From an uncultured Myxococcales bacterium (GTDB taxonomy: Bacteria > Myxococcota_A > UBA9042 > DTJE01), in NCBI GenBank assembly GCA_903936705.1, contig CAIZWN010000005.1:187883-251882 (forward strand): a stretch of 64,000 nt of DNA, read 5' to 3'. Positions 35,354-63,380 of this stretch are shown piece by piece. Each line of letters begins with the position of its first letter. The stretch's first letter is position 1. Below the pieces are notes generated by a model, which was not told the origin of the DNA, did no database searches, and saw nothing but the letters and a program-made list of their open reading frames with translations. The translations under genes and the position numbers were made by a program.

Positions 35354-38191
35354 TCAGAGCAAGGTCCCCGTCACGATTGTGAACGGCAGCCCGATCGAGG
35401 CGGAATCATTGCCGGTCTTGCCGTCGGTATCCAGATCGCCGCATTCCGTCCCGGTGCATAGACGCTGATCCATCGCGGTACGAACCTGGTCCCTGGTATA
35501 CGGGTTGAACTGGTTCTCGGGAACAGTGTCGAGATCCATAATGAGTTTCCTGACGTCGATCGCACCGGCCAGAATTCCAGACCCTCCCACCACCTTTCCA
35601 TTGCCATCCAGTGTCACGGTAGCCCGAATCCGGGCCCACTTCAGCACCTCGGGCACCAGCGTACAGACCGACCCGGTGGTGTTGCAGAAGGCGAAATAGA
35701 TCATCGCCTGGTATTCCTTGCCACCGGCCGTCAGCACGTTGCCCACGATCGTGGCGTTTGCCATGGCGTAGCGAGGCTGGCACGGGGTAAGCATTTCAGC
35801 CGGGAACGGAGAATAGTTGCATCCCGCGGTCGCTGGGTTGCAGGTAGTGGGGGCAGCCAATTGCCCGAACAGCACGTTCAACTTGTAGGGACCCGCGCCC
35901 GGCCCTGGAGACTCGTGCTCCATCAGCAACGATAGCCTGCCGTCCACGACCACATGATTCAGGTCAAGCGCAAACTGCTCGTCCAGGAAAATCCCCATCT
36001 TCCCGAAGAAGTTATCGATGCCACCGCTGCAACCTGGAGAAGGCGAGCACGTATTGACGTTTTCATCGACGTCCAAACCGAACCCGGCAGTGCCATTTCG
36101 GGTCATGACAAGGGTACCTGCCTTCGAGAACGGGTTGGCGAACACATCGGCAACCCCGGCGCAAACACCGTTCGAGCATCGGTCGTTAATGGTGCAGCCA
36201 AGACCGTCGTTGCACTCGTAGGTGTTGTATTCGTACTTGCAACCCTTCGCGATATCGCAGTAATCGTTCGTGCAGAAGTTTTTGTCATCGCAATCCACCG
36301 GAGTCGTGACGCACGACCCTTCCGCGCAATGATCGCCCGAGGTACATGCACTGCGATCATCACAGGGGGCGTCGTTCGGCGGGAACACGCAACCAACCGT
36401 TGGATCGCATACATCGTCGGTACAAACTTCGTTGTCGAAGCAGGTTACCGCCCACCCGCCCTGGCATATGCCTTCAAGGCATCTTTCGCCCGTGGTGCAT
36501 TCGTCGCCGTCGTTGCAAAAGCCGGTCTGGGTTTCATGGACGCAGACGCCGTTGACACAGGAATCCAAGGTGCAGGGTTTGTCATCCACGCAATTCATCG
36601 GGGTTCCCGCGCAAACGGAATCAGAGCATTGATCGTTCAACGTGCACGGGTCATCATCGTCACATAGAGCCGAATTAGCCGTGTAATAGCAGCCGTTGAG
36701 CGGATCACAAAAATCGTCGGTACAAAGCTTGCCGTCATCGCAGGACCGAGGGGTCGAGGAACAGCCGACGAACGGGACGCATGTATCATCAGTGCACGCA
36801 TCATTATCGTCGCACCCCAGGTACGCGGTCGGCATGCACTTCGCGGCGATGCATCGATCGCCGATGGAACACAGGTCGCCGTCGTCGCACAAGATGCCGT
36901 TCTGGACGGCAAGGCTGAGGCATGTCCCTCGCACGCACGAGTCGCTGGTGCAAGGGTTGTGGTCGTCGCAGTCCTTTGCCGAACCCTTGCACACCCCGGC
37001 GGCGCACCTGTCGCTGGAAGTGCACGGGTCACCGTCGTCGCAACCTCGTTCATGCTGGGTGAAAATGCATCCCACAGAGGCTTCACAGGAATCATCCGTG
37101 CACTGGTTATTGTCGTTGCAGATGCGATTCACGCCGGTATGACAAACCAGATTCTCATCGCACATGTCATTCGAAGTACAAAGGTTCCCATCCTCGCAAA
37201 CCGCACCTGGATCAGGATCCTGCCGGCAGATCCCGGCACCAGGCCCCTGCTGAACGCACACGCCCTTCTTGCAAATCGTGCCATCCGAACAGTCCCTGTT
37301 CTTTCCGACGCAATTGCCGTCGGAACAGGCATCATCGATCGTGCACCAATTGCCGTCTTCGCAAAGCTGGGTGTTGAACGTCCGCGTGCACGAACCGGTT
37401 GCCGGGTTGCAGGCGTCGTCAGTGCAGATGTTGTTGTCGGGCGTACATGTCTTCGGCGTCCCGACACATTCGCCATCGACGCAGGTGTCCTGCAGGGTAC
37501 ATCTGTCGCCGTCGTCGCAAGAACCGCTGACCACGTGCGGGTGGGTGCAGGATCCATCAACGCAGTAGTCATAGGTGCATGAGTTGCCGTCATCGCAGGG
37601 TTTCAGGACCAGCGCGCAGGTCGCCAGCGCCGTACACTGCCCACCGGGACTGCACGGGGTAGGGTCGTCGCAAGGAAGACCGACCTCGGCGACGAAGGCC
37701 TCGGTATCCGTATCTGGCTGACAAGTCCTGCACGGGTTCGTCGGGTCCACTGCGTCCTTCTCGATACAGGCACCTTCAATCAGGCACCAGTCGGCCTTCA
37801 GGACCTGGATGCAGCTCGCAGTATCGTCACGCGCAACCTCCGTGCACTCGAGGTCGTCATCGGGGCATGGAACGCACTCGGGCCCCTCGCAGGCATCGCC
37901 AGGTTCGGGGGACAAGTCCTTGCCTGAAATCTCAGGTGGCGCATCCAGGTCAAATCCGCCCCCTTGATCGTCCGTCAAGTTGGCATCTGGTCCAGGATCC
38001 GCGTCGGAACGCGCATCAACCATGTCCGCTGAAACCAGGTCCGACACATCGGCCTGAACCTGTTCTGCGCCTGGGTCTCCCTGGTCAGCGGTATCACGCC
38101 CGGTGTCGGTTCCGGACTGCCCGCCACCGCCACAGGAAGCCAGGGACACCAGCGCAAGCCACAGGATCCAGCCGCTTCGATCAGCCTTCAT
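35354..38191 (-). CDS. Large lipoprotein with about twenty Cys-rich CDDGxxCTxxxC repeats
   Basis: About 945 residues. Signal peptide and lipobox (LALVSLASCGGG) are followed by an Asp/Gly-rich linker (to about residue 95), then roughly twenty tandem units of the form C-D-D-G-x-x-C-T-x-x-D-x-C-x(n)-C-x-x-T (about 100-680). A C-terminal ~250-residue beta domain ends with Asp-rich LDTDGKTGND. The repeats resemble EGF/dickkopf-like units seen in surface proteins of Myxococcota-type bacteria and are expected to be rigid and disulfide-bonded. ATG 38191 is chosen over 38227 for the signal peptide. Adhesion or structural shell functions are possible; nothing proves them. Confidence 0.75.
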   Translation of the reverse strand: MKADRSGWILWLALVSLASCGGGGQSGTDTGRDTADQGDPGAEQVQADVSDLVSADMVDARSDADPGPDANLTDDQGGGFDLDAPPEISGKDLSPEPGDACEGPECVPCPDDDLECTEVARDDTASCIQVLKADWCLIEGACIEKDAVDPTNPCRTCQPDTDTEAFVAEVGLPCDDPTPCSPGGQCTALATCALVLKPCDDGNSCTYDYCVDGSCTHPHVVSGSCDDGDRCTLQDTCVDGECVGTPKTCTPDNNICTDDACNPATGSCTRTFNTQLCEDGNWCTIDDACSDGNCVGKNRDCSDGTICKKGVCVQQGPGAGICRQDPDPGAVCEDGNLCTSNDMCDENLVCHTGVNRICNDNNQCTDDSCEASVGCIFTQHERGCDDGDPCTSSDRCAAGVCKGSAKDCDDHNPCTSDSCVRGTCLSLAVQNGILCDDGDLCSIGDRCIAAKCMPTAYLGCDDNDACTDDTCVPFVGCSSTPRSCDDGKLCTDDFCDPLNGCYYTANSALCDDDDPCTLNDQCSDSVCAGTPMNCVDDKPCTLDSCVNGVCVHETQTGFCNDGDECTTGERCLEGICQGGWAVTCFDNEVCTDDVCDPTVGCVFPPNDAPCDDRSACTSGDHCAEGSCVTTPVDCDDKNFCTNDYCDIAKGCKYEYNTYECNDGLGCTINDRCSNGVCAGVADVFANPFSKAGTLVMTRNGTAGFGLDVDENVNTCSPSPGCSGGIDNFFGKMGIFLDEQFALDLNHVVVDGRLSLLMEHESPGPGAGPYKLNVLFGQLAAPTTCNPATAGCNYSPFPAEMLTPCQPRYAMANATIVGNVLTAGGKEYQAMIYFAFCNTTGSVCTLVPEVLKWARIRATVTLDGNGKVVGGSGILAGAIDVRKLIMDLDTVPENQFNPYTRDQVRTAMDQRLCTGTECGDLDTDGKTGNDSASIGLPFTIVTGTLL

Positions 38192-38249
38192 AAGCCGCCC
38201 CGATGCAGGTTCGCGGGTATTGTACACGGAACCAAGCGATATCGCCCCG

Positions 38250-51267: not shown

Positions 51268-51451
51268 CCGACAAACCGCACTGCCCCTTCATCTGTATCT
51301 GGTGAAATCACCGGACTGGTTTTCGTCGCTATACTCGGATATTATCCATCCTAGTTAAACCTGTAATTTCCTGGTTTTCGCATCAGATGGATTGACACGA
51401 TTCACATGGGATCCTGGCCTCCAGTAAAGGCCGGAACAGAAACTCTTGACC

Positions 51452-51472
51452 TTCGGACCCAAATTGTCCGAA
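51452..51472. promoter_or_regulatory. Palindrome upstream of the decahaem cytochrome gene
   Basis: TTCGGAC and GTCCGAA (51452-51458 and 51466-51472) form perfect 7-bp arms with a 7-bp centre, directly after a TTGACC (51446-51451) that could be a -35 box. Position and symmetry suggest a regulator site; no binding protein is identified. The rest of the 255-bp gap shows nothing else distinct. Confidence 0.45.
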
Positions 51473-51522
51473 ACTACCGCCGATATTGGTTTCCAAAGGT
51501 CGGTTTTTCAATTGGAGGTGCC

Positions 51523-54500
51523 ATGAGACGGGCTATGTCTGGTTCAGGGACTATCGGGGTGATCTTGTTCTCAGTGATGTTCCTTGCCGCCTGCGAAGGC
51601 GCGAAGGGTCCTGTCGGCGACGCGGGAACGCCGGGCAAGTCGTGTACGGCGACCGAAGACGCCACTGCCGGAACCGTGACGATCACGTGCGAAGGCGGTG
51701 CGTCTGTAACCCTGAAGAACGGGACGGATGGCACAGCCGGACTGGCCGGTGTCGATGGCAGGCCGTGCGCCTCGACCGAGGATACCGTGGCCGGAACGGT
51801 CACGATTACCTGTCCGGGTTCCGAGGCTGTCGTCCTGTCTAACGGCAAGGACGGAACCAACGGAACCAACGGAACCAACGGAACCAACGGAGACAACGGC
51901 ACCAACGGCACCAACGGCGAATCCTGCACGGCGACCAAGGACGCCGAGACGGGCGACGTTACGATCACGTGCCCCGATGCCGAGCCAATCGTTCTGAAGG
52001 ACGGCGTTGACGGCACCAACGGCCTGCCCTGCACGGCCGTGCGTGATGCCGAGACGACGTTCGTTACGATCACCTGCCCCGACGTCGAGCCCGTTGTCGT
52101 AAACGACGGTACGAACGGCCTGGACGGCGTGAACTGCTCGGTCGTTGACAACCTCAACGGCAGCAAGACGATCACGTGCGGCTCGACCCTGGTGACTGTA
52201 TTCGACGGCGCCACAGGCCCGTCGGCCGCCGCCGTTTTCAACCTGGCCGCCGATGCGGTCCCGACCCTCGTCGCGACCGTGACCAGCGTAACGATCACCG
52301 GCAAGCCGGTCATCAAGTTCACCCTGAAGGATGGGCTGGGCCGCGGAGCGGTTGGCCTGCGCGTCGGCAGCAGCGGCGGCAACGCCCGTTTCGCCCTCGC
52401 CAAGCTGGTCCCCTTCAACGCAACCACCGGCGAGCCTGCCGATTGGGTTGATTACGTCCTTTCCGCCTCGGGCAGCCCCAGCTCGGACCGCACGGGAACC
52501 CTGAAGGACAACGGCGACGGCAGCTACGAGTACACATTCGCCATTGACGTGACCACCGTCACAACTCCGAAAGTCATCCTTTGGGAGCCGACGCTGACGA
52601 CCCGTCTGGCGATCCAGATTTCCGGCACCGGCGGCGGCATCGCCGCGGCGTCTGGCGGCATCGCCCTGCCATACGTCAACAAGATCTACGACTTCATCCC
52701 CGCGGGCGGCGCGGTCGCTGACACTCACTCGGTTGTCACGACTGCCGCCTGCAATGAGTGCCATGGTCAGTTGGCCCTTCACGGCAGCCGCATCGAGACC
52801 GGCTATTGCGTCGTATGTCATAACCCAGCCGGCCTTGGTGCCGAGCTCGACATGGCGTACATGACCCACGCGATTCACGGCGCCGCCGTCCGCAAGTCGA
52901 ACGGAGCCCCGGCGTACATGATCGGCTCGGCCAGCTTTGCCGAGGTCACCTACCCGCAGTCCCCCAACCTCTGCAAGAAGTGCCACGACGGTACGACCTC
53001 GGCCCAGGGTAACAACTGGAAGCTGTACCCGACGAAGGACGATTGTGGCGCTTGCCACCAGAACGCGCTGCTTACGGATGGCGTTGCGACCTACGAGAGT
53101 CATGTCGCCGATGCCACCAACGACACCTGCATCGGGTGCCACGGCGCTGGCAAGATGAAGGACATCGAAAAGGTCCACGCGGTCGAAAACAACAGCCCCC
53201 ATGCAACTGGCGTGGTGACTGGCGCCTCGAACTTCACGTACGAGGTCAAGACCGTAACGATGGCGGGAGATGCCACGCACCCGATCATCACCTTCAAGAT
53301 CACCCGTGACGGCGTTGCGATCGACGCCACCGCAGCGCTTCCCGCCGAACTCAGCGGCGGCCCGTCGTTCCTGCTGGCCTACGCCTTGCCGCAGGGTGAC
53401 ATCACGGACCCGTCCGACTACAACAATCTCGGCCGTGCCGCTGGCCAGCCACTGAGCGTTTCTCTGGCGAACCTTCGCGCCGGCACTGCCGGCACCTTGG
53501 CCGCAGATTCAGTCAACGCCGGCTACTACATCGCCACGTTGACCGGCGCCAACGCCTTCCCGGTTGGTGCGAAGCTGCGCGCGGTCGGCCTGCAGGGCTA
53601 CTTCTCCCAGACGGGAGTGCCCGGCTACGGCACCACAGCCCTTGGTCGCCACACTCTGGCGTCGGTTGCGCCGGTAACCGGCGACACCGTTCGTCGCGAC
53701 GTTATCGATTCCGCAAAGTGCGGCGCCTGCCACGAGTGGTTTGAGGGTCACGGCGGCAACCGCCTGGCCGGCCTCGGCACCACCGGCCAGAACATCTGCG
53801 TTCTGTGCCACGTTCAGAACCTGAGCACGGGTGGCCGCGGTGCGGACCCGGCCACAGTCCTGGCTCGCCTCAGGACGGCAGGCGGAGCAGCCCTTGACCG
53901 GAACGGCAACGGCGTCTGCGACATCACGACAGACCCGCTTACGACCGACGACCTGTACGTCGACGGCGTTTGCGACGTCCTGGACAGGATGTCGGCAGAT
54001 GGCTTCGATCCTGCTGACCCGATGACCTTCCCCGAGGTGTCCAACAACCTGAAGGACATGCTGCACGGGATCCACGGCTCGGCCAAGCGTGTGAACCCCT
54101 TCCGCGAAGTCCGTGACCGCGGCACCAGCGGCGTGTTCTTCTATGACTTCAGCGAAGTCACCTACCCGAACGAACACGACGCCTGCCTTGCCTGCCACAA
54201 GACTGGGACCTACTACCCCAATCTGCCGGCTGGCGTTCTGGCTTCGACCCTGGTGACCTACAATGGCGACGCCAACGAGAGCGGTACTATCACCTTCGCC
54301 GACATCGTCGCGGCGCGCGCCTCGGTCCCGAACGGCCTGGACACAGTCTCGACGCCCGCAGCGGCGACCTGCTCGGGCTGCCATGACTCGGACCTGGCGA
54401 TCGCCCACATGGAGCAGAACGGCGGCGCCGTGTCCAAGACCCGTGGAACCCTGGACCCGACTGCCATCGAGACCTGCGTTCTTTGCCACGGTGCGGGCCG

Positions 54501-54534
54501 TGCCGAGGACGTCAAGGTTGCCCACGGATTCTGA
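51523..54534 (+). CDS. OmcA/MtrC-family decahaem c-type cytochrome lipoprotein
   Basis: A 1003-residue lipoprotein (lipobox FLAACEG). Residues about 25-230 contain about five degenerate Cys-pair repeats with VTITC cores (DUF7151-like), interrupted by a collagen-like GTN repeat. The rest is beta-barrel segments with two pentahaem domains. Ten CxxCH motifs are visible: CNECH, CVVCH, CKKCH, CGACH and CIGCH in the first (about 408-540), CGACH, CVLCH, CLACH, CSGCH and CVLCH in the second (about 733-990). Cell-surface decahaem proteins of this type pass electrons to metals or electrodes. ATG 51523 has GGAGG; earlier in-frame ATG 51406 is upstream of the palindrome. A strong hairpin follows the stop. 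It faces the cytochrome operon. Confidence 0.9.
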   Translation: MRRAMSGSGTIGVILFSVMFLAACEGAKGPVGDAGTPGKSCTATEDATAGTVTITCEGGASVTLKNGTDGTAGLAGVDGRPCASTEDTVAGTVTITCPGSEAVVLSNGKDGTNGTNGTNGTNGDNGTNGTNGESCTATKDAETGDVTITCPDAEPIVLKDGVDGTNGLPCTAVRDAETTFVTITCPDVEPVVVNDGTNGLDGVNCSVVDNLNGSKTITCGSTLVTVFDGATGPSAAAVFNLAADAVPTLVATVTSVTITGKPVIKFTLKDGLGRGAVGLRVGSSGGNARFALAKLVPFNATTGEPADWVDYVLSASGSPSSDRTGTLKDNGDGSYEYTFAIDVTTVTTPKVILWEPTLTTRLAIQISGTGGGIAAASGGIALPYVNKIYDFIPAGGAVADTHSVVTTAACNECHGQLALHGSRIETGYCVVCHNPAGLGAELDMAYMTHAIHGAAVRKSNGAPAYMIGSASFAEVTYPQSPNLCKKCHDGTTSAQGNNWKLYPTKDDCGACHQNALLTDGVATYESHVADATNDTCIGCHGAGKMKDIEKVHAVENNSPHATGVVTGASNFTYEVKTVTMAGDATHPIITFKITRDGVAIDATAALPAELSGGPSFLLAYALPQGDITDPSDYNNLGRAAGQPLSVSLANLRAGTAGTLAADSVNAGYYIATLTGANAFPVGAKLRAVGLQGYFSQTGVPGYGTTALGRHTLASVAPVTGDTVRRDVIDSAKCGACHEWFEGHGGNRLAGLGTTGQNICVLCHVQNLSTGGRGADPATVLARLRTAGGAALDRNGNGVCDITTDPLTTDDLYVDGVCDVLDRMSADGFDPADPMTFPEVSNNLKDMLHGIHGSAKRVNPFREVRDRGTSGVFFYDFSEVTYPNEHDACLACHKTGTYYPNLPAGVLASTLVTYNGDANESGTITFADIVAARASVPNGLDTVSTPAAATCSGCHDSDLAIAHMEQNGGAVSKTRGTLDPTAIETCVLCHGAGRAEDVKVAHGF
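51853..51915 (+). repeat. Seven 9-bp tandem units in the decahaem gene
   Basis: GGAACCAAC is repeated four times perfectly (51853-51888), then GGAGACAAC and two GGCACCAAC units follow. They encode Gly-Thr/Asp-Asn triplets of a collagen-like spacer. Replication slippage could change the spacer length without shifting the frame. Confidence 0.9.
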
Positions 54535-55006: not shown

Positions 55007-56383
55007 TCAGTGACCGCCGCCCTTCTTGCCTGATCGGCGCAGGCGGACGTTCCTGATGATGTCCATGATGATGTAGGTCAGAAAGAACCCCATCGTAGCG
55101 ACAATCAGCAGCGTGTAGAGTTTTTCAATGATACCGGGCACCCAGTGCCGATCCTCGGCCAAGGTCGCGTGAATCTTGCCGGTAATCAGGGGCTTGGCCC
55201 GATCCTGCACCGAGTGGCACTTGCCACATGTCTTGCTCATGTTTGCAGGATTCGTGGACGATTTCGGGTCGGCTGATGCCCGGATATCGTGAGATTCGTG
55301 GCAACTGGCGCAGTTCGCTACCCGGGTGTCGCCCAGCTTCGATGCTGCTCCGTGATAGGACTCGAGATACGTAGGCACCCTGGCCTCGGGAATCCCGTAT
55401 TTGTTGACGACGTTCGCCTGCGAGTGGCATTTCAAGCACGTCGCTGCCACATGCGTCGTATATGTCGCTGCCCCCGAATCGAAATGCGACCGGATCTGGT
55501 GGGATCTGTGACAGTCGGTGCAGACCGGCACGTCCAGGTTCCCGTCCAGGAAGGGCTTGCCATGAACGCTCTCGAGGTAGACCTTGACGACGCCCGCATG
55601 GCACTTTCCACACGTCTCGGGAATCTTGGCCCGCGAAATGCGGTTCTTGCCGCCGTCGCGTCCGTGGGTCACGTCGTGGCTGCCGTGGCAGTCGATGCAG
55701 GTAGCCGACACCATCAGTCCGGCCTTGGTCACAGCCAGGCCGTGGATGCTGCCAAAGTAATCCTTCACCGCGCTGACCATCGCCGGGTTGAAACCCCGCT
55801 CCTCGTCAGTATGGCACTTGGCGCATGCCTGGGCCTGGTTCAACCGGAATACGGTGGACTGCGGGTCTGCTGGACGAAGAACATCATGAGCGCCGTGGCA
55901 ATCGCTGCAGGTGGCAACCTTGTCGTTCGGCGCCTTGCCATGCCAACTGTTCGTGTAGATCCCCAATTCCTTGTCGTGGCAGGCGCCGCACTGCGCTGCG
56001 ATACGCTGGTTACGGTTGTGATTCGCCCCCTTCCTGACGACGTCGTGGGTTCCATGGCAATCGACACACTTGGGAGCATCGACATTGCCGGCGCCATGAA
56101 CGCTGATCGACATCTGCGCCTCAACTGCCCCGTGGCACTTCACGCAGTTGACCTTGGGAGGCTTCGCATGGCCGTCGTCGCTGACATCGAATTCGCCGTG
56201 GCAAGCGACGCAAGACCCGCCGGCCTTCCCTTCGCCCAGTTTCATGTGGGGAGATGCCTTCAGGGCCGCACCCGAGGACACACCATCGTGGCAGTCGATG
56301 CATTCGGCTGCAGCAACAGTGAACGGGGCCGAAAAAGCAAGAACCACGACCGCGCATAGCCCGAAGCCTGGATTCGCCTTCAT
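55007..56383 (-). CDS. Membrane-anchored 13-haem c-type cytochrome
   Basis: A 458-residue protein. An N-terminal signal peptide (about 1-25) leads into a periplasmic part with thirteen CxxCH motifs: CIDCH, CVACH, CVKCH, CVDCH, CGACH, CSDCH, CAKCH, CIDCH, CGKCH, CTDCH, CLKCH, CASCH and CGKCH. The repeated SxHG and CxDCHGxHDV pattern is as in quinol-linked multihaem proteins. A single C-terminal membrane helix (LLIVATMGFFLTYIIMDII) anchors it, with a basic tail. It overlaps the receiver-cytochrome-b gene by four bases (ATGA), so they are coupled and probably form one complex: cytochrome b in the membrane, this protein as periplasmic electron exit. Confidence 0.9.
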   Translation of the reverse strand: MKANPGFGLCAVVVLAFSAPFTVAAAECIDCHDGVSSGAALKASPHMKLGEGKAGGSCVACHGEFDVSDDGHAKPPKVNCVKCHGAVEAQMSISVHGAGNVDAPKCVDCHGTHDVVRKGANHNRNQRIAAQCGACHDKELGIYTNSWHGKAPNDKVATCSDCHGAHDVLRPADPQSTVFRLNQAQACAKCHTDEERGFNPAMVSAVKDYFGSIHGLAVTKAGLMVSATCIDCHGSHDVTHGRDGGKNRISRAKIPETCGKCHAGVVKVYLESVHGKPFLDGNLDVPVCTDCHRSHQIRSHFDSGAATYTTHVAATCLKCHSQANVVNKYGIPEARVPTYLESYHGAASKLGDTRVANCASCHESHDIRASADPKSSTNPANMSKTCGKCHSVQDRAKPLITGKIHATLAEDRHWVPGIIEKLYTLLIVATMGFFLTYIIMDIIRNVRLRRSGKKGGGH

Positions 56384-57528
56384 TTGGCCCCTCCCTGCCG
56401 GGTCGCCCGGTCCTCAGACTTCCCATCGTCGGGCCCACCCGCGCCGTGCTCTGCATCGGCAGATCGGCCGGTCAGCGCCTCGAACTCCAGAGGGTGCTCG
56501 TGCAGCATTTCGGCCCGGCTGATCCGTCCCGTCAGCCAGATCCGGCTCATCGGGAACACCCCTGCCTTCAGGTGAACGTTGTACATATGCCATATGGCAA
56601 TCGTCAGGATGGCCAGAATGGCCTCGTACCTGTGAACAACCTTGGCCACGTCAAAGAACCACAGCGGTGCGATCAGCAGGACCTGGTCCTTGAACCACAT
56701 CACAAGACCCGTCAAAACCATGACGAGGGAGCCCCAGACCACACCGAAGTACTCGAATTTCTCGAAGAAACTATACTTCCCGGCCTTGGGCCGATCCTTG
56801 CGCAACCCGAAGGTGAACATGATGTTGCCGCCCGCCTCCTTCAGGTCCTTGGGAATGCTGGGCAGGATAGCACGCAGGTTCTTGTTTCCGTCCTCGGTCA
56901 AAAGGATGTACCCGATGTGGTAGAAGCTAAGGAACATCAGTCCAACAGCCGAGATTCGGTGCATCAGCCCGCGCAGGTAACTGCTGTCATCGAAGAAAAA
57001 CACACCCTTGAATGTCTCTGGAAAAAACAACGGAACGCCGGTGATGCTGAGCAACGTGAACGTAAGGATCAGCACGATGTGCTGGGTCAGCATCGGCCGC
57101 GAGAAACGCTCGAATCCGGCCTCCTCCTCCCGCTTGCGGATCCTGGAAAACCGCAGCTCGGCCAGGGAACGCACAAAACGAACCAGCTCGTCCTGCGAGA
57201 ACGGCTTCTCTATGAAGTCGGTTGCTCCAAACTTCATCGCTCCAACCGCCGAGTCCACCGATGCATAGCCGGTCATCATGGCGAAGTCGGTGTCCGGGCG
57301 AATCTTGCGGCCTTGCTCCAGCACGCCAAGGCCGTCAAGCCCCGGCATTTTTAGATCTGTGATGACAAGGTCGAACGGAGTTTCTCGAAGCTTTGCCAGA
57401 CCCGCCTCTCCCGAAGGAGCGGTTGTCACGTCGAACTCAGCACGCAACGGACTGAATACCTTTAGATAACTTTCCAGAATGATCGGTTCGTCATCGATGA
57501 CCAGCATCTTCAGCGGGGCTTGCGCCAT
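56380..57528 (-). CDS. Response-regulator receiver domain fused to diheme cytochrome b (CbcL-like)
   Basis: A 382-residue protein of unusual build. Residues 1-125 form a complete REC domain: acidic pair Asp12/Asp13, phosphoacceptor Asp58 (VITDLKMPG), Thr86 (MMTGYAS), Lys108 (FIEKPFS). After a charged linker (about 126-145) come four membrane helices (about 147-167, 188-212, 262-282, 302-322). They contain His150, His190, His204, His299 and His314, the expected haem-b ligands. The C-terminal portion (FEYFGVVWGSLVM, VVHRYEAILAIL, AIWHMYNVH, MLHEHPLEFEAL) is paralogous to the membrane part of the nine-haem fusion at 59666-61651. There is no DNA-binding domain. The likely output of phosphorylation is the cytochrome b itself. 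The operon's histidine kinase is the natural partner. Confidence 0.88.
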   Translation of the reverse strand: MAQAPLKMLVIDDEPIILESYLKVFSPLRAEFDVTTAPSGEAGLAKLRETPFDLVITDLKMPGLDGLGVLEQGRKIRPDTDFAMMTGYASVDSAVGAMKFGATDFIEKPFSQDELVRFVRSLAELRFSRIRKREEEAGFERFSRPMLTQHIVLILTFTLLSITGVPLFFPETFKGVFFFDDSSYLRGLMHRISAVGLMFLSFYHIGYILLTEDGNKNLRAILPSIPKDLKEAGGNIMFTFGLRKDRPKAGKYSFFEKFEYFGVVWGSLVMVLTGLVMWFKDQVLLIAPLWFFDVAKVVHRYEAILAILTIAIWHMYNVHLKAGVFPMSRIWLTGRISRAEMLHEHPLEFEALTGRSADAEHGAGGPDDGKSEDRATRQGGAK

Positions 57529-57591: not shown

Positions 57592-59664
57592 TCACCTGGA
57601 TGTTGCAGGTGCCTGTTCGACGGCAGTATGGGCATCCCCGGCATCTCCCTTCAGGAGCTTCTCGATTGCCTCCATGATCTTGCGGGCGTATGCCGGATTG
57701 TGAGCGCCACCCGAACGATCCTCGTCAATGGCGGCCAGGTCACCCTTGGCCTTTACAAGGCTCTTCAGCGGCAGGCTCTTCGCCAGTTCGGCGGCCGCGA
57801 CCGCAGCCTTCAGGACGTCCAGCCGCTTGCCGACTTCCTCCTGCCAGGCCGTTGGCATTGCGCCGTACTTCTGATCGTGGCATCCGACACAGGCCTCGCG
57901 AATCTTGGCCTTGTCGTTGCCCTCGCCGATATCCACATGGCAATCCTTGCACGCAGCCTGGTCAACCATCGCGTCGGGCGTCTTCGGCACGCCAAGCGCC
58001 GAGGCCGTTCCCTGGATGAAGCCTACCTGCTTCTGATGACACGCCTCGCCGCACTCGCTGGTCTGCTGGGTGTGGTGGCAGTGCACGCACGACTTCTTCT
58101 GCAGACGCACAGCGCCGTGCCTGGTGCTGTTGTCGTGGCAGTACACGCACTGCAGACCATGCTTGGTGATGTGATCACGGTGGGACAGTTCCAGGTCGTC
58201 GTACTTGACCTTCAGCACCTTGTCCATGCTGCTATGGCAGACCTGCGTACACTTTGCCGTGATGGGCGCGGGATCGAAGCCCAGCGCACTGGCCAGAGTC
58301 TCGCCACCGGGCTTTGCCGCCTGCATGATGGCGTCAAGGTCCGACTGGACGGCCACCAGGATACGCTCGGCGTACAGCACGTTGTGCTCGCCACGCCCCT
58401 CGCGCAGGAACCTCAGGTTGTATTCCGCGCGGTCCAGGTGCGCCTTGGCTTCCTTTCGGACCGCCTCGTCCGCGATGGCGTCAGGCAGGTTTTTCACCAG
58501 TTCCCGCTTGGCCTCCACGCCATCGGTGGACGACTTCAGCAGGGACTTCCACTTGTCAAGCATCACGTCGAAGCCCTCGCCGTGGCATGCGACGCAGGCA
58601 CTGCGCGTCCCGAAGTTCACGGTTTCGCCCTCGACCGACCCTGCCATCGCACGGACTTCGCGCTTCTCGCGATGACACCCGTCGCAGCCCACCTGGGCCT
58701 TGAACATTACGTCTGGCGACGGTTCCACACCCTTCGCACCAACCCCCATGTACATGTCGCGATGCGGGTCGTGGGTATTGGAATGGCACGTGGCGCAGGA
58801 CACCTCCAGCGTTCGCACCATCTTGACCTGGCGATGCTCGATTGGCTTGTGACAGCGGTCGCAAGCGATGTGATGCTTGGCCACATGGTTATCGTGGATG
58901 GTCGCCTTGTCGAACTTCTCGACGTGCTGCTGCAAGTGACACTGGCTGCATCGCCCCGGCGGAACCTCACCCTTGCCGGACGTTACTTCCAGGTGGCAGT
59001 CGCTGCACTTCATGCCCAGGCCCACGAACTTTTCGTGACTGACCGAGAATCCCTTGTGCGAAACCGGGGCGTCAGGCGCACCGTGGCACTTGCACCCGGC
59101 AATTGCCACACCCTTCGACAAATCCTTGAAATGGCACAGGAAGCACGACTCCTTCGTGACCTTCATGTGTTCGCCCTGGACGATACGCGAGTGGCACGCC
59201 ACGCACGGCAATTCCATGCCACGAGGACGGCCGGTCAAGTGGGCCTTGTGATCGAAATCGATTGTCTTGTCGAACTTCACCGGGCCTGACAACGTGCGGC
59301 CTTCGTGGCAGCCCGACTTCAGGCAGGACGAGTCCGGCACTTCGGCGCGAGGCATGTAATCGTAGGCGCCGACCAAATACTTTGCCGTGTTCCACACATT
59401 GCGGGACTGCTGGGCAATCGTCCCAGGGACACTGTCCGAGTTGTGACACTTCCAGCAGGGCACGTCCGAATGAGCGGAATCCTTCCACTCCTTCACGAAC
59501 GGCTCCTCGAAGTGGCACGTCGAGCAAAAGCCTGTCGATCGCGAAAGAAAGTAGGCTGCCGATATCATGGCAACGTACAGGCCCAAAACCACGGCCCCGA
59601 CGGTAGCCAGAACCTTCCAGTTTCGGACGACCCAGGTTCGAATGGTTCCCTTTGTGGCGTTCAT
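57592..59664 (-). CDS. Multihaem NapC/NirT-type membrane-anchored cytochrome c (about 18 haem motifs)
   Basis: A 690-residue protein with one N-terminal membrane anchor (about 17-38), then the NapC-like FCSTCHFEEPFVKEWKDSAH. I count 14 canonical CxxCH motifs. Four non-standard sites follow the same spacing: CLKSGCH (CX4CH), CTQVCH and CGEACH (CX3CH) and CKCH (CX1CH). If all carry haem the total is 18. A Cys-free helical stretch (about 360-460) and an Ala/Lys-rich C-terminal tail separate haem blocks. It could move electrons from quinol to outer periplasmic carriers. Its stop and start are 1-63 bp from the neighbours, so it is co-transcribed with the cytochrome-b genes. Confidence 0.85.
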   Translation of the reverse strand: MNATKGTIRTWVVRNWKVLATVGAVVLGLYVAMISAAYFLSRSTGFCSTCHFEEPFVKEWKDSAHSDVPCWKCHNSDSVPGTIAQQSRNVWNTAKYLVGAYDYMPRAEVPDSSCLKSGCHEGRTLSGPVKFDKTIDFDHKAHLTGRPRGMELPCVACHSRIVQGEHMKVTKESCFLCHFKDLSKGVAIAGCKCHGAPDAPVSHKGFSVSHEKFVGLGMKCSDCHLEVTSGKGEVPPGRCSQCHLQQHVEKFDKATIHDNHVAKHHIACDRCHKPIEHRQVKMVRTLEVSCATCHSNTHDPHRDMYMGVGAKGVEPSPDVMFKAQVGCDGCHREKREVRAMAGSVEGETVNFGTRSACVACHGEGFDVMLDKWKSLLKSSTDGVEAKRELVKNLPDAIADEAVRKEAKAHLDRAEYNLRFLREGRGEHNVLYAERILVAVQSDLDAIMQAAKPGGETLASALGFDPAPITAKCTQVCHSSMDKVLKVKYDDLELSHRDHITKHGLQCVYCHDNSTRHGAVRLQKKSCVHCHHTQQTSECGEACHQKQVGFIQGTASALGVPKTPDAMVDQAACKDCHVDIGEGNDKAKIREACVGCHDQKYGAMPTAWQEEVGKRLDVLKAAVAAAELAKSLPLKSLVKAKGDLAAIDEDRSGGAHNPAYARKIMEAIEKLLKGDAGDAHTAVEQAPATSR

Positions 59665-59665
59665 A

Positions 59666-61651
59666 TCAGTCTTCCTCCCCGGACGAGGCGCGACGGGCGG
59701 CTTCCTCGGCCCCGAATGCCTCCACCAGCACGGCAGCAGCGGTCGGATCGTGGCCCTGGATCTCCTCCAGTAGTTCGCGCTTGACGCGGCCCTTGCGCAA
59801 CAAGGAGATCAACTCCTTAGGATGCTCTTCCAGCAGTTCGCCTATATTGGTCCAGCCGTTCCAGAAGACCTTGTTCATCGGGAATTTATCGGGATTGATG
59901 TGCGCGTTGAACATGTGCCAGATGACAATTGCCAGGGTGGCCAGCATCGCCTCGTCCGAATGCATTTCCTTGGCGACGTCCAGCCAGTCCTTGGAAATGA
60001 AACGCATGGCGTCGGTCTGGAACCACAGTACGGCCCCCGACAGGATCATCACGACGCAACCCCAGTAAACGGCCCAGTAGTCGAATTTTTCCAGGTACGA
60101 GAATCGCGGGAACCGGGGCTTGTCCTTCTTGAAACCCAGGAAATAGCTGATGTTATGAAACACATCCTCAAGATCGCTGGGCCCTGGCAGCATGTTCCAG
60201 AAGTTGTAGCGGCCGGGACGCGTGAAGATGATGTAGAAAAGGTGGGTCAGCGACACCAGGATCAACTGCGTCGCGGCCAGACGATGGATTACACTGGTTA
60301 CCGTCAGGCCTCCGATCACCGACATCAGACTGGCAGCCCAGGCAGACTCGTGGAACTTGACCGGAATGCCCGTGAAGATCAGCAGGATGCACGCGATTGC
60401 CATGTTCGCATGCTGGATGCGCACGAACAGGTCCAGGCGGCGGACCGGGGTTGCCAGAATCTCGGCCAGGCGCGACCCTGGCTTGGGATGATGGTGACCG
60501 TCCTTCTTCCCGCGCCTGCGGTTCAACCATCGCCGCAGCAGGTCCAAGGCAATGTGCAGGACCAGGCCGGCCATGACCGAAATCGTCAGCAGCATGAAGG
60601 CCCGGGCGATCCAATAGATCTTGCCGGACGATTCGTCATGCGACGACACGTGCATCTTGCCACGGGCGAAGTTTGCCGAGGCGCCTGGATGGCACTCGGC
60701 CTTGCCGCACGTCTCGGGAACGCGCACCGGGCTGACTGTTGACCGAGGGTCATCAGGCGGCAGGATCCGGTGATGTTCGTGGCAGGAAGTGCAGTTGGCG
60801 ACCTTGGTCACGCCGAACTTCAGCGCAACCCCGTGGAACGACGACTTGAAGGTCGCGACGTTCTTGGCGTTCAGGCCATAACGGTCCATGACCTGCTGAT
60901 CCTCGTGGCACCGACCGCATGCCTCGGGAATATGGGTAGAAAATACCTTCGACGTCGGGTCCGATGGGCGCTGGATCTCGTGCTCGGAATGGCAATCCGT
61001 GCAGACCGGGGCATCCACGTTGCCCTTGGCCGCCTGCTGCCCGTGGAGGCCCTCAAGGTACTCGGCCTTGGACCTCGAATGACATCGACCGCAGTCATCC
61101 GGAAGGTTCTTTCGGTGTACACGGGACGTTGGATCGTCGGCAGGCCGGACCTCGTGTGTGCCGTGGCAATCCTGACAAAGCGGGGCACGTGCATCGCCTG
61201 ATGCCGCCAGCCTGCCATGAACGCTTTCCTGGTACTGCTTGTAGCGACGCGACTCGGGGGCACCAACCGTGTTGCCAACGTAGTGACAGCGCACGCACTG
61301 GACGCGTTCCAGTCCTTTCTTGTGCGGGACCACGTCGGCATCAGCATGGCACTCCCAGCAATTGCGCTTGCCGTGAACCGACGCGCCGAACGCCTCGGTA
61401 TCAACGAATAGTCCCTTCCTCCCGTCAGATCTAGCCTTGTCCTTGAACTCCTCGCGGGAGTGGCAGAAGAGGCATCGCCGATTGCCGCCGTCACTTGGTA
61501 TAACCGCGCCCGATGGCACACCATCGGTTGCGATACCGACTGCAGCACTGTCAGCGGCGATCCTTGGTGGTGCCGCGCTGGAACCGGAAGGCACCGCCAA
61601 AAATACCAGCGCCGCAGTGGCAGACAACAGGAACGAGGGATAGGTCCTCAT
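59666..61651 (-). CDS. CbcL-like nine-haem cytochrome c fused to diheme cytochrome b
   Basis: A 661-residue protein. Signal peptide (RTYPSFLLSATAALVFLAV), then eight CxxCH motifs (CLFCH, CWECH, CVRCH, CQDCH, CGRCH, CTDCH, CGRCH, CTSCH) and one CX4CH (CGKAECH), with the SxHG repeats between. From about residue 340 onward there are about five membrane helices with haem-b histidines (LHIALDLL, IQHANMAIA, VIHRLAATQL, MHSDEAMLATL, IWHMFNAH). This is the layout of the inner-membrane quinone oxidoreductase CbcL of Geobacter. I use ATG 61651 because it gives a signal peptide; an upstream ATG at 61672 is possible. It lies two bases from the next gene. Confidence 0.88.
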   Translation of the reverse strand: MRTYPSFLLSATAALVFLAVPSGSSAAPPRIAADSAAVGIATDGVPSGAVIPSDGGNRRCLFCHSREEFKDKARSDGRKGLFVDTEAFGASVHGKRNCWECHADADVVPHKKGLERVQCVRCHYVGNTVGAPESRRYKQYQESVHGRLAASGDARAPLCQDCHGTHEVRPADDPTSRVHRKNLPDDCGRCHSRSKAEYLEGLHGQQAAKGNVDAPVCTDCHSEHEIQRPSDPTSKVFSTHIPEACGRCHEDQQVMDRYGLNAKNVATFKSSFHGVALKFGVTKVANCTSCHEHHRILPPDDPRSTVSPVRVPETCGKAECHPGASANFARGKMHVSSHDESSGKIYWIARAFMLLTISVMAGLVLHIALDLLRRWLNRRRGKKDGHHHPKPGSRLAEILATPVRRLDLFVRIQHANMAIACILLIFTGIPVKFHESAWAASLMSVIGGLTVTSVIHRLAATQLILVSLTHLFYIIFTRPGRYNFWNMLPGPSDLEDVFHNISYFLGFKKDKPRFPRFSYLEKFDYWAVYWGCVVMILSGAVLWFQTDAMRFISKDWLDVAKEMHSDEAMLATLAIVIWHMFNAHINPDKFPMNKVFWNGWTNIGELLEEHPKELISLLRKGRVKRELLEEIQGHDPTAAAVLVEAFGAEEAARRASSGEED

Positions 61652-61804: not shown

Positions 61805-63310
61805 TCACGTCCCAGCCGCACTGCCTTGCACTGCGGCCTTCACCGGCAACCTCAACGTAAATGTAGAACCGGACCCGGGCTGAGAGCGCGCAGACAACTT
61901 GCCCCCGTGACCCTCGGCAATACCCCAACTGATGGACAGCCCCAGACCGGTGCCCTTCCCTTCCTTCGTCGTGTAGAACGGCTCGAAGATGCGGTGTAAT
62001 TCATCGGACGGCATTCCGGTGCCTGCATCCGCGACGTCGATCTCCACCGCATTTCCGTCATCCACCAGTCGGCGGGTTATCGTGATTTCGCCACCATCCG
62101 GCATCGCGTCCATCGCGTTCACCAGCAGGTTCAGGAACACCTGCTGGATCTGGGCAGCGTCCATCTCGATCTCGGGCAGGTCGCCCCCTACTTCCAATAT
62201 TTGTATGCCCGACTTCGACGCCTGGGTCCTGACAACCTGCAGGACCTTGCCAATGACACCCTCGATCCTCGCCGGAATTCTCTGCGGCATGGTTTGACGC
62301 GAAAAATCCAGCAGCCCCTTCACTATCTCGCGACAGCGCTGAGCCTCGCGAGAGATTGTCTCCAGGTCGGCACGACGAGGGTCAGAAGGATCACTCGAAT
62401 CCAGCATGTTGCTGGAAATCAGCATCAGGCCGGTCAGCGGATTGTTGATTTCGTGGGCCACGCCAGCGGCCAACCGTCCGACTACCGCCAGCTTTTCCGA
62501 GTGCAACAAGTGGCCGCGAGCCTCGGACAAGCTGCGGGTCATGCTGTTGAACTCCTGTGCAACATGGGCGAATTCGTCGTCGCCCGACGTCCGAATCGGC
62601 TGATCCAGATTACCCCCGGACACGCTCGCCATGCCCTTTAACAGGACGCGAATGCGGCGGGTAACAAACCGGTGAACAAACCCGAAGATTACCAGGGCAA
62701 TCAGGATGGTTAGAACCAGTGCCGACGCCAACGATGCGGCCCGGAACTTCTCGAGTTCGACGTCGAAGGGCGCCAGAGACAGTGTCAAATCCATGACGCC
62801 CAGAATCTTCTGATCAGCGGGATGCACGTGGCACGGAGCCGACGAACAATCCGGTTCGTTGTACAAAGGCTCGATCAGCGTGAACAGGCGTCGTCCCTGC
62901 GCGTCACGATAGATGAACGTCCGCTGGGCCGGATCCATCGACGCAACTGGCGCGCCATTTCCATGACACCCCTTGCAGGCATCATCTGTCGTTGGAACCC
63001 GCGAACCCGTAACCGCAGGGTCCGAAGCGAACTGGACAACGCCGTCCTTGTTGAAGATCCGAAGACCCGTGACGTCCTGCCCGCCTGCCAGTGTTCGGAC
63101 CGTCGTCTTCACGCCCTCGCGGTCATCGTGCAGCATGGCATACCGCAGGCTGCGTTTGACCGTGTCCGACAGGCGGATTCCGCCCCCCTGAACCTCTCCG
63201 ATAACCTGTTGCTCGAGGCTTCGAACTGCCACCCAGGCGCCGATGCCAAGGCCGACTGCCAGCGTCAGCCCCACTGCCACTACCAGGCGGACGGCAATCA
63301 ACTGTCTCAT
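61805..63310 (-). CDS. Sensor histidine kinase with c-haem motifs in its periplasmic domain
   Basis: A 501-residue kinase. TM1 (about 8-29), periplasmic sensor (about 30-190), TM2 (about 193-213), HAMP (about 214-268), HisKA with phosphorylatable His286 (GVAHEINNPLTG), N-box NLLVNAMDAM, G1 DAGTGMP and G2 GKGTGLGLSI. In the sensor there is a canonical CKGCH (Cys112-His116) and a CSSAPCH (Cys155-His161), the second with the CX4CH spacing also seen in this operon's cytochromes. It is thus likely to sense redox state or a small ligand via c-type haem. It is first in the operon behind a good promoter, and no separate response regulator gene is present in the window. Confidence 0.9.
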   Translation of the reverse strand: MRQLIAVRLVVAVGLTLAVGLGIGAWVAVRSLEQQVIGEVQGGGIRLSDTVKRSLRYAMLHDDREGVKTTVRTLAGGQDVTGLRIFNKDGVVQFASDPAVTGSRVPTTDDACKGCHGNGAPVASMDPAQRTFIYRDAQGRRLFTLIEPLYNEPDCSSAPCHVHPADQKILGVMDLTLSLAPFDVELEKFRAASLASALVLTILIALVIFGFVHRFVTRRIRVLLKGMASVSGGNLDQPIRTSGDDEFAHVAQEFNSMTRSLSEARGHLLHSEKLAVVGRLAAGVAHEINNPLTGLMLISSNMLDSSDPSDPRRADLETISREAQRCREIVKGLLDFSRQTMPQRIPARIEGVIGKVLQVVRTQASKSGIQILEVGGDLPEIEMDAAQIQQVFLNLLVNAMDAMPDGGEITITRRLVDDGNAVEIDVADAGTGMPSDELHRIFEPFYTTKEGKGTGLGLSISWGIAEGHGGKLSARSQPGSGSTFTLRLPVKAAVQGSAAGT

Positions 63311-63351: not shown

Positions 63352-63380
63352 AGTATAGTCAAGAGGAGTCTGCTTGTCCA
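63352..63380 (-). promoter_or_regulatory. Sigma70-type promoter of the kinase-cytochrome operon
   Basis: On the minus strand TGGACA (63375-63380) and TATACT (63352-63357) are separated by 17 bp, each differing from consensus at one base. The start would be about 35 bp upstream of the kinase ATG, with GGGAG as ribosome site. The 207-bp gap up to the S1 gene shows nothing else distinct. Confidence 0.6.

Follow-up and report, generated by a model that had tools for sequence, protein, structure and literature searches.

Among described systems, the nearest enzymes to the locus reported here that were found in a literature search are the quinone oxidoreductases CbcL and CbcBA. CbcL of Geobacter sulfurreducens is an inner-membrane quinone oxidoreductase in which a HydC/FdnI-like dihaem cytochrome b comes after a nine-haem periplasmic head (PMC9129911, PMC6295460). 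A second set of relevant proteins is the c-haem sensors GSU0935 and GSU0582, for which signalling by a redox-linked change at the haem has been reported (PMC8396549). All three kinds of protein have counterparts in a single minus-strand gene run of an uncultured Myxococcales bacterium, found in a 64,000-nucleotide stretch of DNA (the window) from a metagenome-assembled genome (MAG) of 4.85 Mb. The run comprises, in order of transcription, a sensor histidine kinase (HK), a fused cytochrome protein (F), a multihaem cytochrome with a membrane anchor (N), a receiver-cytochrome b fusion (RB) and a 13-haem protein (H13), with coordinates as given in Table 1. Compared by its described layout, CbcL has the same architecture as F.

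The reading favored here, and held with moderate confidence, is that RB and H13 would form an oxidoreductase whose cytochrome b has become the output of a two-component response regulator, one that HK would phosphorylate and that would thereby gate electron flow between quinone and cytochrome.

Table 1. Features of the multihaem operon and its surroundings, in window coordinates
Feature	Position	Strand	Evidence
HK, sensor histidine kinase with periplasmic PAS-like domain, HAMP, HisKA and HATPase_c	61805..63310	-	Pfam
F, fused nine-haem c head and dihaem cytochrome b, CbcL-like architecture	59666..61651	-	motifs, Pfam, alignments, trees
N, NapC/NrfH-like membrane anchor and multihaem cytochrome	57592..59664	-	motif counts, Pfam
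RB, REC-cytochrome b fusion, 382 aa	56380..57528	-	Pfam, alignment, AF2 model
REC domain of RB, residues 1-122	57163..57528	-	Pfam PF00072, alignment
Relay helix and linker of RB, residues 112-143	57100..57195	-	AF2 model, sequences
Four-helix cytochrome b of RB, residues 144-353	56470..57099	-	Pfam, AF2 model, alignment
H13, 13-haem periplasmic head with C-terminal membrane anchor	55007..56383	-	motif count, alignments
Weak sigma-70-like promoter match upstream of HK, TGGACA-17-TATACT	63352..63380	-	pattern search

Gene content of the operon

The F gene starts with an ATG at 61651 and encodes a signal peptide. Eight CxxCH motifs and one CX4CH in its N-terminal half account for nine c-type haems, while the C-terminus of the same chain matches the PF01292 cytochrome b family (E 2.9e-13) and retains the conserved histidine columns of that family. 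A search of PDB sequences with F returned no match. RB combines a PF00072 receiver (E 3.9e-24) with a PF01292 cytochrome b (E 5.7e-14), and H13, whose start codon overlaps the RB stop as ATGA, carries 13 CxxCH motifs and a C-terminal membrane helix. These motif counts and Pfam matches bear out the original prediction that a fused nine-haem/cytochrome b protein shares an operon with a REC-cytochrome b/13-haem pair, including its claim that the split cytochrome b had gained a REC domain. Since its cytochrome b and its multihaem c protein are encoded by separate, adjacent genes, the RB-H13 pair has the makeup of a split oxidoreductase, and domain homology predicts that it acts as a quinone/cytochrome c oxidoreductase of this split kind.

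N lies between the paralogues F and RB, and its relatives accompany F-type genes in other phyla. It holds 14 CxxCH motifs, one CX4CH, one CXCH and two CX3CH (18 CH motifs in total, the last four being unusual and haem-like), and Pfam matched multihaem cytochrome families in N as well as in F and H13. Sigma-70-like promoter matches, including the weak one upstream of HK, were no more frequent than in shuffles, and the sigma-54 promoter pattern occurred no more often than expected by chance.

Two other genes of the window deserve mention. An OmcA/MtrC-family decahaem cytochrome (TIGR03507, 398.6 bits) with collagen-like G-T-N repeats in its N-terminal part is encoded at 51406-54534 on the plus strand, so that it and the operon meet tail to tail; a search of the genome for an MtrB/PioB porin found none. 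Farther away, at 35354-38227 on the minus strand, is a gene for a very cysteine-rich, secreted-type protein with many short repeats (CDDGNxCT and similar).

Homology and descent of F and RB

The shared cytochrome b C-terminus that had been noticed from a few motif pairs is substantiated by alignment, in which those pairs are present and F matches RB at 38% over 210 aa (E 8e-45). The two heads are homologous as well (32% over 361 aa, E 1e-54), H13 having four extra haems, much as had been suspected. With the heads aligned, the nine motifs of F correspond to H13 motifs 1, 4 and 7-13, and the eleven-haem relatives have all H13 motifs except 2 and 3. Because the match holds haem by haem, H13 can be viewed as an F-type head with added haems.

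The cytochrome b domains are clearly homologous, as are the heads, which is what would be expected had F and RB arisen by duplication within this lineage, with one copy fused throughout and the other losing the fusion and gaining a receiver. This was the history originally proposed, and a tree of the cytochrome b domains had been named as its check, with placement in distant, unrelated clades counting against it. Such a tree was built from 73 domains of family, class, phylum and other-phylum genomes, each classed by architecture; its root is arbitrary and the Geobacter CbcL sequence itself lies outside it. The nine REC-cytochrome b proteins formed one clade (100/100) within a larger clade that otherwise contained only split cytochrome b genes (99/95). 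F and four family orthologues formed another (100/100), whose sister group was five split F-type genes (99/90). The branch that separates the RB group from the F group had support of 100/98, and forcing RB and F into a joint clade cost 44 log units (AU p = 3.8e-5). RB and F thus fall into different well-supported clades, which comes near the outcome named beforehand as contrary. The head tree recovered the same two groups, H13 with split 11-haem heads and the F head with split 9-haem heads (both SH-aLRT 93). What stands of the proposed history is that F and RB are paralogues, one fused and one split; a duplication within the lineage followed by loss of fusion is rejected by the tree and the AU test, and we regard that history as extremely improbable. 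A single fusion behind all fused proteins was also rejected (AU p = 5.6e-10), the fused proteins not forming one clade.

The trees and the gene neighborhoods point to a different history. The nearest relatives of RB are all separate cytochrome b genes, and those of F outside the family are also separate genes, in other phyla, for a 9-haem head, a cytochrome b and an NrfH-like protein. Moreover, in four loci (L139, L141, L150 and L190) a head/cytochrome b pair sister to RB stands in a row with a split 9-haem head, the cytochrome b of that head and an NrfH-like gene of 16-17 haems, and the same row is partly present in two more (L140 and L132). Because this row recurs in several genomes of other phyla, the presence of both paralogues in one locus is an old partnership. 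The separate clades of RB and F indicate that their duplication is older than this family. With split genes surrounding both proteins, the fusion seen in F looks secondary; it is probably the derived state, and the split arrangement the state around both. F differs from CbcL in this respect, in that its nearest relatives found are split genes with an NrfH-like partner, and its fusion may be independent of that in CbcL.

The receiver-cytochrome b fusion

RB was found in 9 of the 13 genomes searched from this Myxococcota family, and since nine genomes carry it, the possibility that the fusion is an assembly artefact of one MAG is ruled out. For those orthologues that have named records, the MAGs were submitted under the names Myxococcales, Myxococcota or Deltaproteobacteria. 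When 84,980 species genomes were scanned by peptide, REC-cytochrome b proteins turned up only in this family and in one locus beyond it (L073), and no intact form outside the family occurred in the inspected loci, drawn from samples of 379 Myxococcota and of the groups of the closest relatives, with 78, 3, 249 and 3 genomes. L073 belongs to RBG_13_61_14, from a small phylum sampled by three genomes. There, a REC domain and the first half of a cytochrome b are joined to what appears to be the C-terminal anchor of an H13-like head (L073:5926-6825, the same as L150:6012-6911), a join that arose through a real deletion or else in the assembly. The REC domains of all REC-cytochrome b proteins formed one clade in the REC tree (99/94), which indicates that the fusion arose once and was then inherited or transferred. 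The nearest regulator to these receivers in that tree was weakly supported (89/67).

The receiver in the window has all of the residues of a phosphorylation site: an acidic pocket (D12, D13), the phosphoacceptor D58 (codon 57355-57357), T86 and K108. All but one of the 9 family members retain D58, T86 and K108, even though the family is deeply diverged; the G006 protein, for example, matches other members at 48-54% identity in REC and 61-69% in cytochrome b. The AF2 model of RB (mean pLDDT 87) has a canonical receiver and four membrane helices at residues 144-168, 182-210, 254-278 and 289-320, with the alpha-5 helix of the receiver (residues 112-137) leading to the first of them. The spacing from K108 to Q149, the first conserved QH, is 41 residues in 10 of 10 REC-cytochrome b proteins. 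In the membrane part, the histidine columns at 150, 190, 204, 299 and 314 are conserved in at least 94% of the whole cytochrome b set. The best 60 of 310 PDB sequence matches of RB were receiver-type proteins; receivers likewise predominated among the Foldseek matches of RB, and the four-helix cytochrome b is predicted from Pfam and the AF2 model. A positively charged stretch precedes the first membrane helix and would place the receiver in the cytoplasm, on the side where the kinase domain of HK should lie.

The same structural features might be read in terms of assembly. Receivers commonly dimerise through the alpha-4/beta-5/alpha-5 face, and the alpha-5 helix is the very linker of RB in the AF2 model, so phosphorylation could conceivably set the meeting of RB with H13, the localisation of RB or the formation of dimers, any effect on catalysis being indirect. 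This is in most respects a sub-version of gating by phosphorylation, and as a distinct explanation it seems unlikely.

A second receiver fusion was found in operons of the same kind. In all four sampled genomes of the small phylum of G425, the F-type and RB-sister genes share their locus with the gene for a 600-aa protein (L141:1202-3001; also L180-L183). This protein begins with a receiver (PF00072, E 4.4e-15), continues with a membrane helix and a NapC/NrfH domain, and has 11 CxxCH motifs. Its phosphoacceptor aspartate (LDYxIPD) and lysine (KP) are invariant in all four, and its relatives in neighboring phyla match only from about residue 125-175 onward, leaving out most or all of the receiver. 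These REC-NrfH receivers formed their own clade (100/100), and a common source for them and the REC-cytochrome b receivers had an AU p of 0.50. That receivers have been joined to the cytoplasmic end of two different quinone-side partners within one kind of operon argues that such an arrangement is useful.

The kinase, its loss and a possible route of control

The sensor domain of HK contains a CxxCH (C112-H116) and a CX4CH (C155-H161), both invariant in 15 sensor sequences, and the H-box of the kinase reads AHEINNPLTG. The model of the sensor is PAS-like and matches WalK-type domains; by fold it also matched the c-haem sensor GSU0935 (3B42, E 2.7e-5) as well as GSU0582 (3B47), and against Pfam PF21563 the domain scored 24.2 bits, below the cut-off of 27. 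HK therefore shares with the two Geobacter proteins a PAS-like periplasmic fold bearing a c-haem motif, but its domain drives a histidine kinase rather than a chemoreceptor and has the second, invariant CX4CH. In the HK tree, HK1 was monophyletic in 25% of bootstraps. The same genome encodes a second haem-sensor kinase of this type, followed by a sigma-54 NtrC-type regulator (L128:4082-7173; G000:C5, about 308 kb), and similar kinase-regulator loci occur in other genomes of the family.

HK and RB are closely linked. The distance between them is 14 nt in G011, 18 nt in G005, 7 nt in G007 and -23 nt in G006, while in the genus of the window the F-N pair lies between them within the same gene run; the -4 ATGA overlap of H13 with RB is present in all seven readable homologous loci. 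A close HK orthologue occurs in 7 of the 9 genomes with RB. As for the other two, the contig of G009 ends inside RB and G012 is without HK. In the four family genomes that are without RB, the HK sensor domain had no match.

G012 provides a natural case of kinase loss. Its flanking genes are syntenic with those of G006 (71-73% identity), only 146 nt are left at the position of HK, and tblastn with the sensor domain gave no significant match elsewhere in this 68%-complete MAG. The receiver of its RB carries D58A, T86A, K108R and D13P. Compared with its congener G006, it is 36% identical in REC and 68% in cytochrome b; its REC branch measures 1.76 versus 0.33 for its sister, and its cytochrome b branch is ordinary. 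Cytochrome b and H13 are intact, and REC alone has decayed. A functional HK-REC pair predicts exactly such a loss of kinase and phosphosite with the enzyme left intact, so G012 counts as support, and this coupled loss, coming from one lineage and a single incomplete MAG, is strong but not conclusive evidence for the pair. It also points to an enzyme that is kept for its own sake, as it survives without the kinase. At L073, the REC-cytochrome b protein, truncated in its cytochrome b, is without a detectable HK of this type. In G006, the RB locus adjoins genes for a divergent PAS-sigma54 activator and an 8-haem PF11783 cytochrome (L045:2082-5387 and L047:608-3898), which have homologues in G012; the activator is possibly a transcriptional regulator of the locus.

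The lost phosphosite of G012 could also be taken to mean that REC is carried along as a vestige, without a role in present-day members. Set against this are the retention of the phosphosite in every other member over deep divergence and of the kinase alongside it, and the idea seems very improbable. Alternatively, signaling might flow in reverse, with the cytochrome b sensing the quinone pool and altering the receiver, which would in turn titrate or dephosphorylate HK, making RB a respiratory feedback sensor and phosphate sink. The constant-length helix between REC and cytochrome b would suit such a flow, and the second haem-sensor kinase with its NtrC-type regulator could conceivably receive the altered signal. 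However, the minimal module of HK, RB and H13 includes no other output gene linked to HK, and after kinase loss it is the receiver that decays while the cytochrome b and H13 persist. A reverse flow is thus a doubtful alternative.

In the favored reading, in which HK acts on RB, the kinase would sense the periplasmic redox state by means of the c-type haem in its PAS-like domain, autophosphorylate, and pass the phosphoryl group to D58 of the RB receiver. Phosphorylation of D58 would then displace alpha-5, the helix running into the first membrane helix, and so could switch on or off the passage of electrons between the quinone pool and the periplasmic 13-haem wire. The signal, the phosphotransfer and the gating, which could take either sign, are put forward here on the strength of sequence and model comparisons. 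Weighing against this reading are the placement of F and N between HK and RB in the genus of the window, the L073 protein with no detectable HK of this type, and the low bootstrap frequency of HK1 monophyly. F and N would make up a second oxidoreductase of older, separate descent that does without a receiver. Because one lineage has lost both kinase and phosphosite naturally, the gating idea can be tested with single-residue mutants.

Metal- and electrode-respiring bacteria possess several quinone oxidoreductases of the inner membrane that differ in the potential to which they are tuned, and how a cell chooses between them is usually described in terms of gene regulation. In the present cells, phosphorylation probably acts directly on a respiratory enzyme as a switch, beyond gene control alone. 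If so, a receiver fused to the oxidoreductase and an adjoining redox-sensing kinase would amount to control within seconds at the enzyme itself. The four-helix cytochrome b that forms the output region of RB matches no described type of response-regulator output, whether DNA- or RNA-binding, enzymatic or protein-binding, and a literature search of limited coverage found no precedent for a receiver-cytochrome b protein. With RB, the range of outputs that receiver domains can drive would extend to a membrane redox enzyme. The broader proposition is evenly balanced: that membrane respiratory quinone oxidoreductases constitute a new class of response-regulator output, that fusion of receivers to different subunits of one multihaem operon type has occurred at least twice, and that a kinase here controls outflow from the quinone pool by phosphorylation, bypassing transcription.

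Compared by description only, CbcBA resembles RB and H13 in having a cytochrome b gene and a separate multihaem c gene, and it differs in that H13 has 13 haems and RB has a receiver; to our knowledge, CbcB is without a receiver domain. In two Gemmatimonadota (L071, L072), a sensor-kinase/NtrC-type pair sits beside genes for an 11-haem head and a split cytochrome b related to H13 and RB. Like the second kinase locus described above (L128), these systems resemble the one in the window in the kind of sensor kinase and in the broad group to which the receiver belongs, but their regulator is a sigma-54 transcription activator, whereas here the receiver is joined to a respiratory protein. The pairing of same-type kinases with NtrC-type regulators elsewhere suggests that control may have moved from transcription to the enzyme once a receiver became joined to the cytochrome b.
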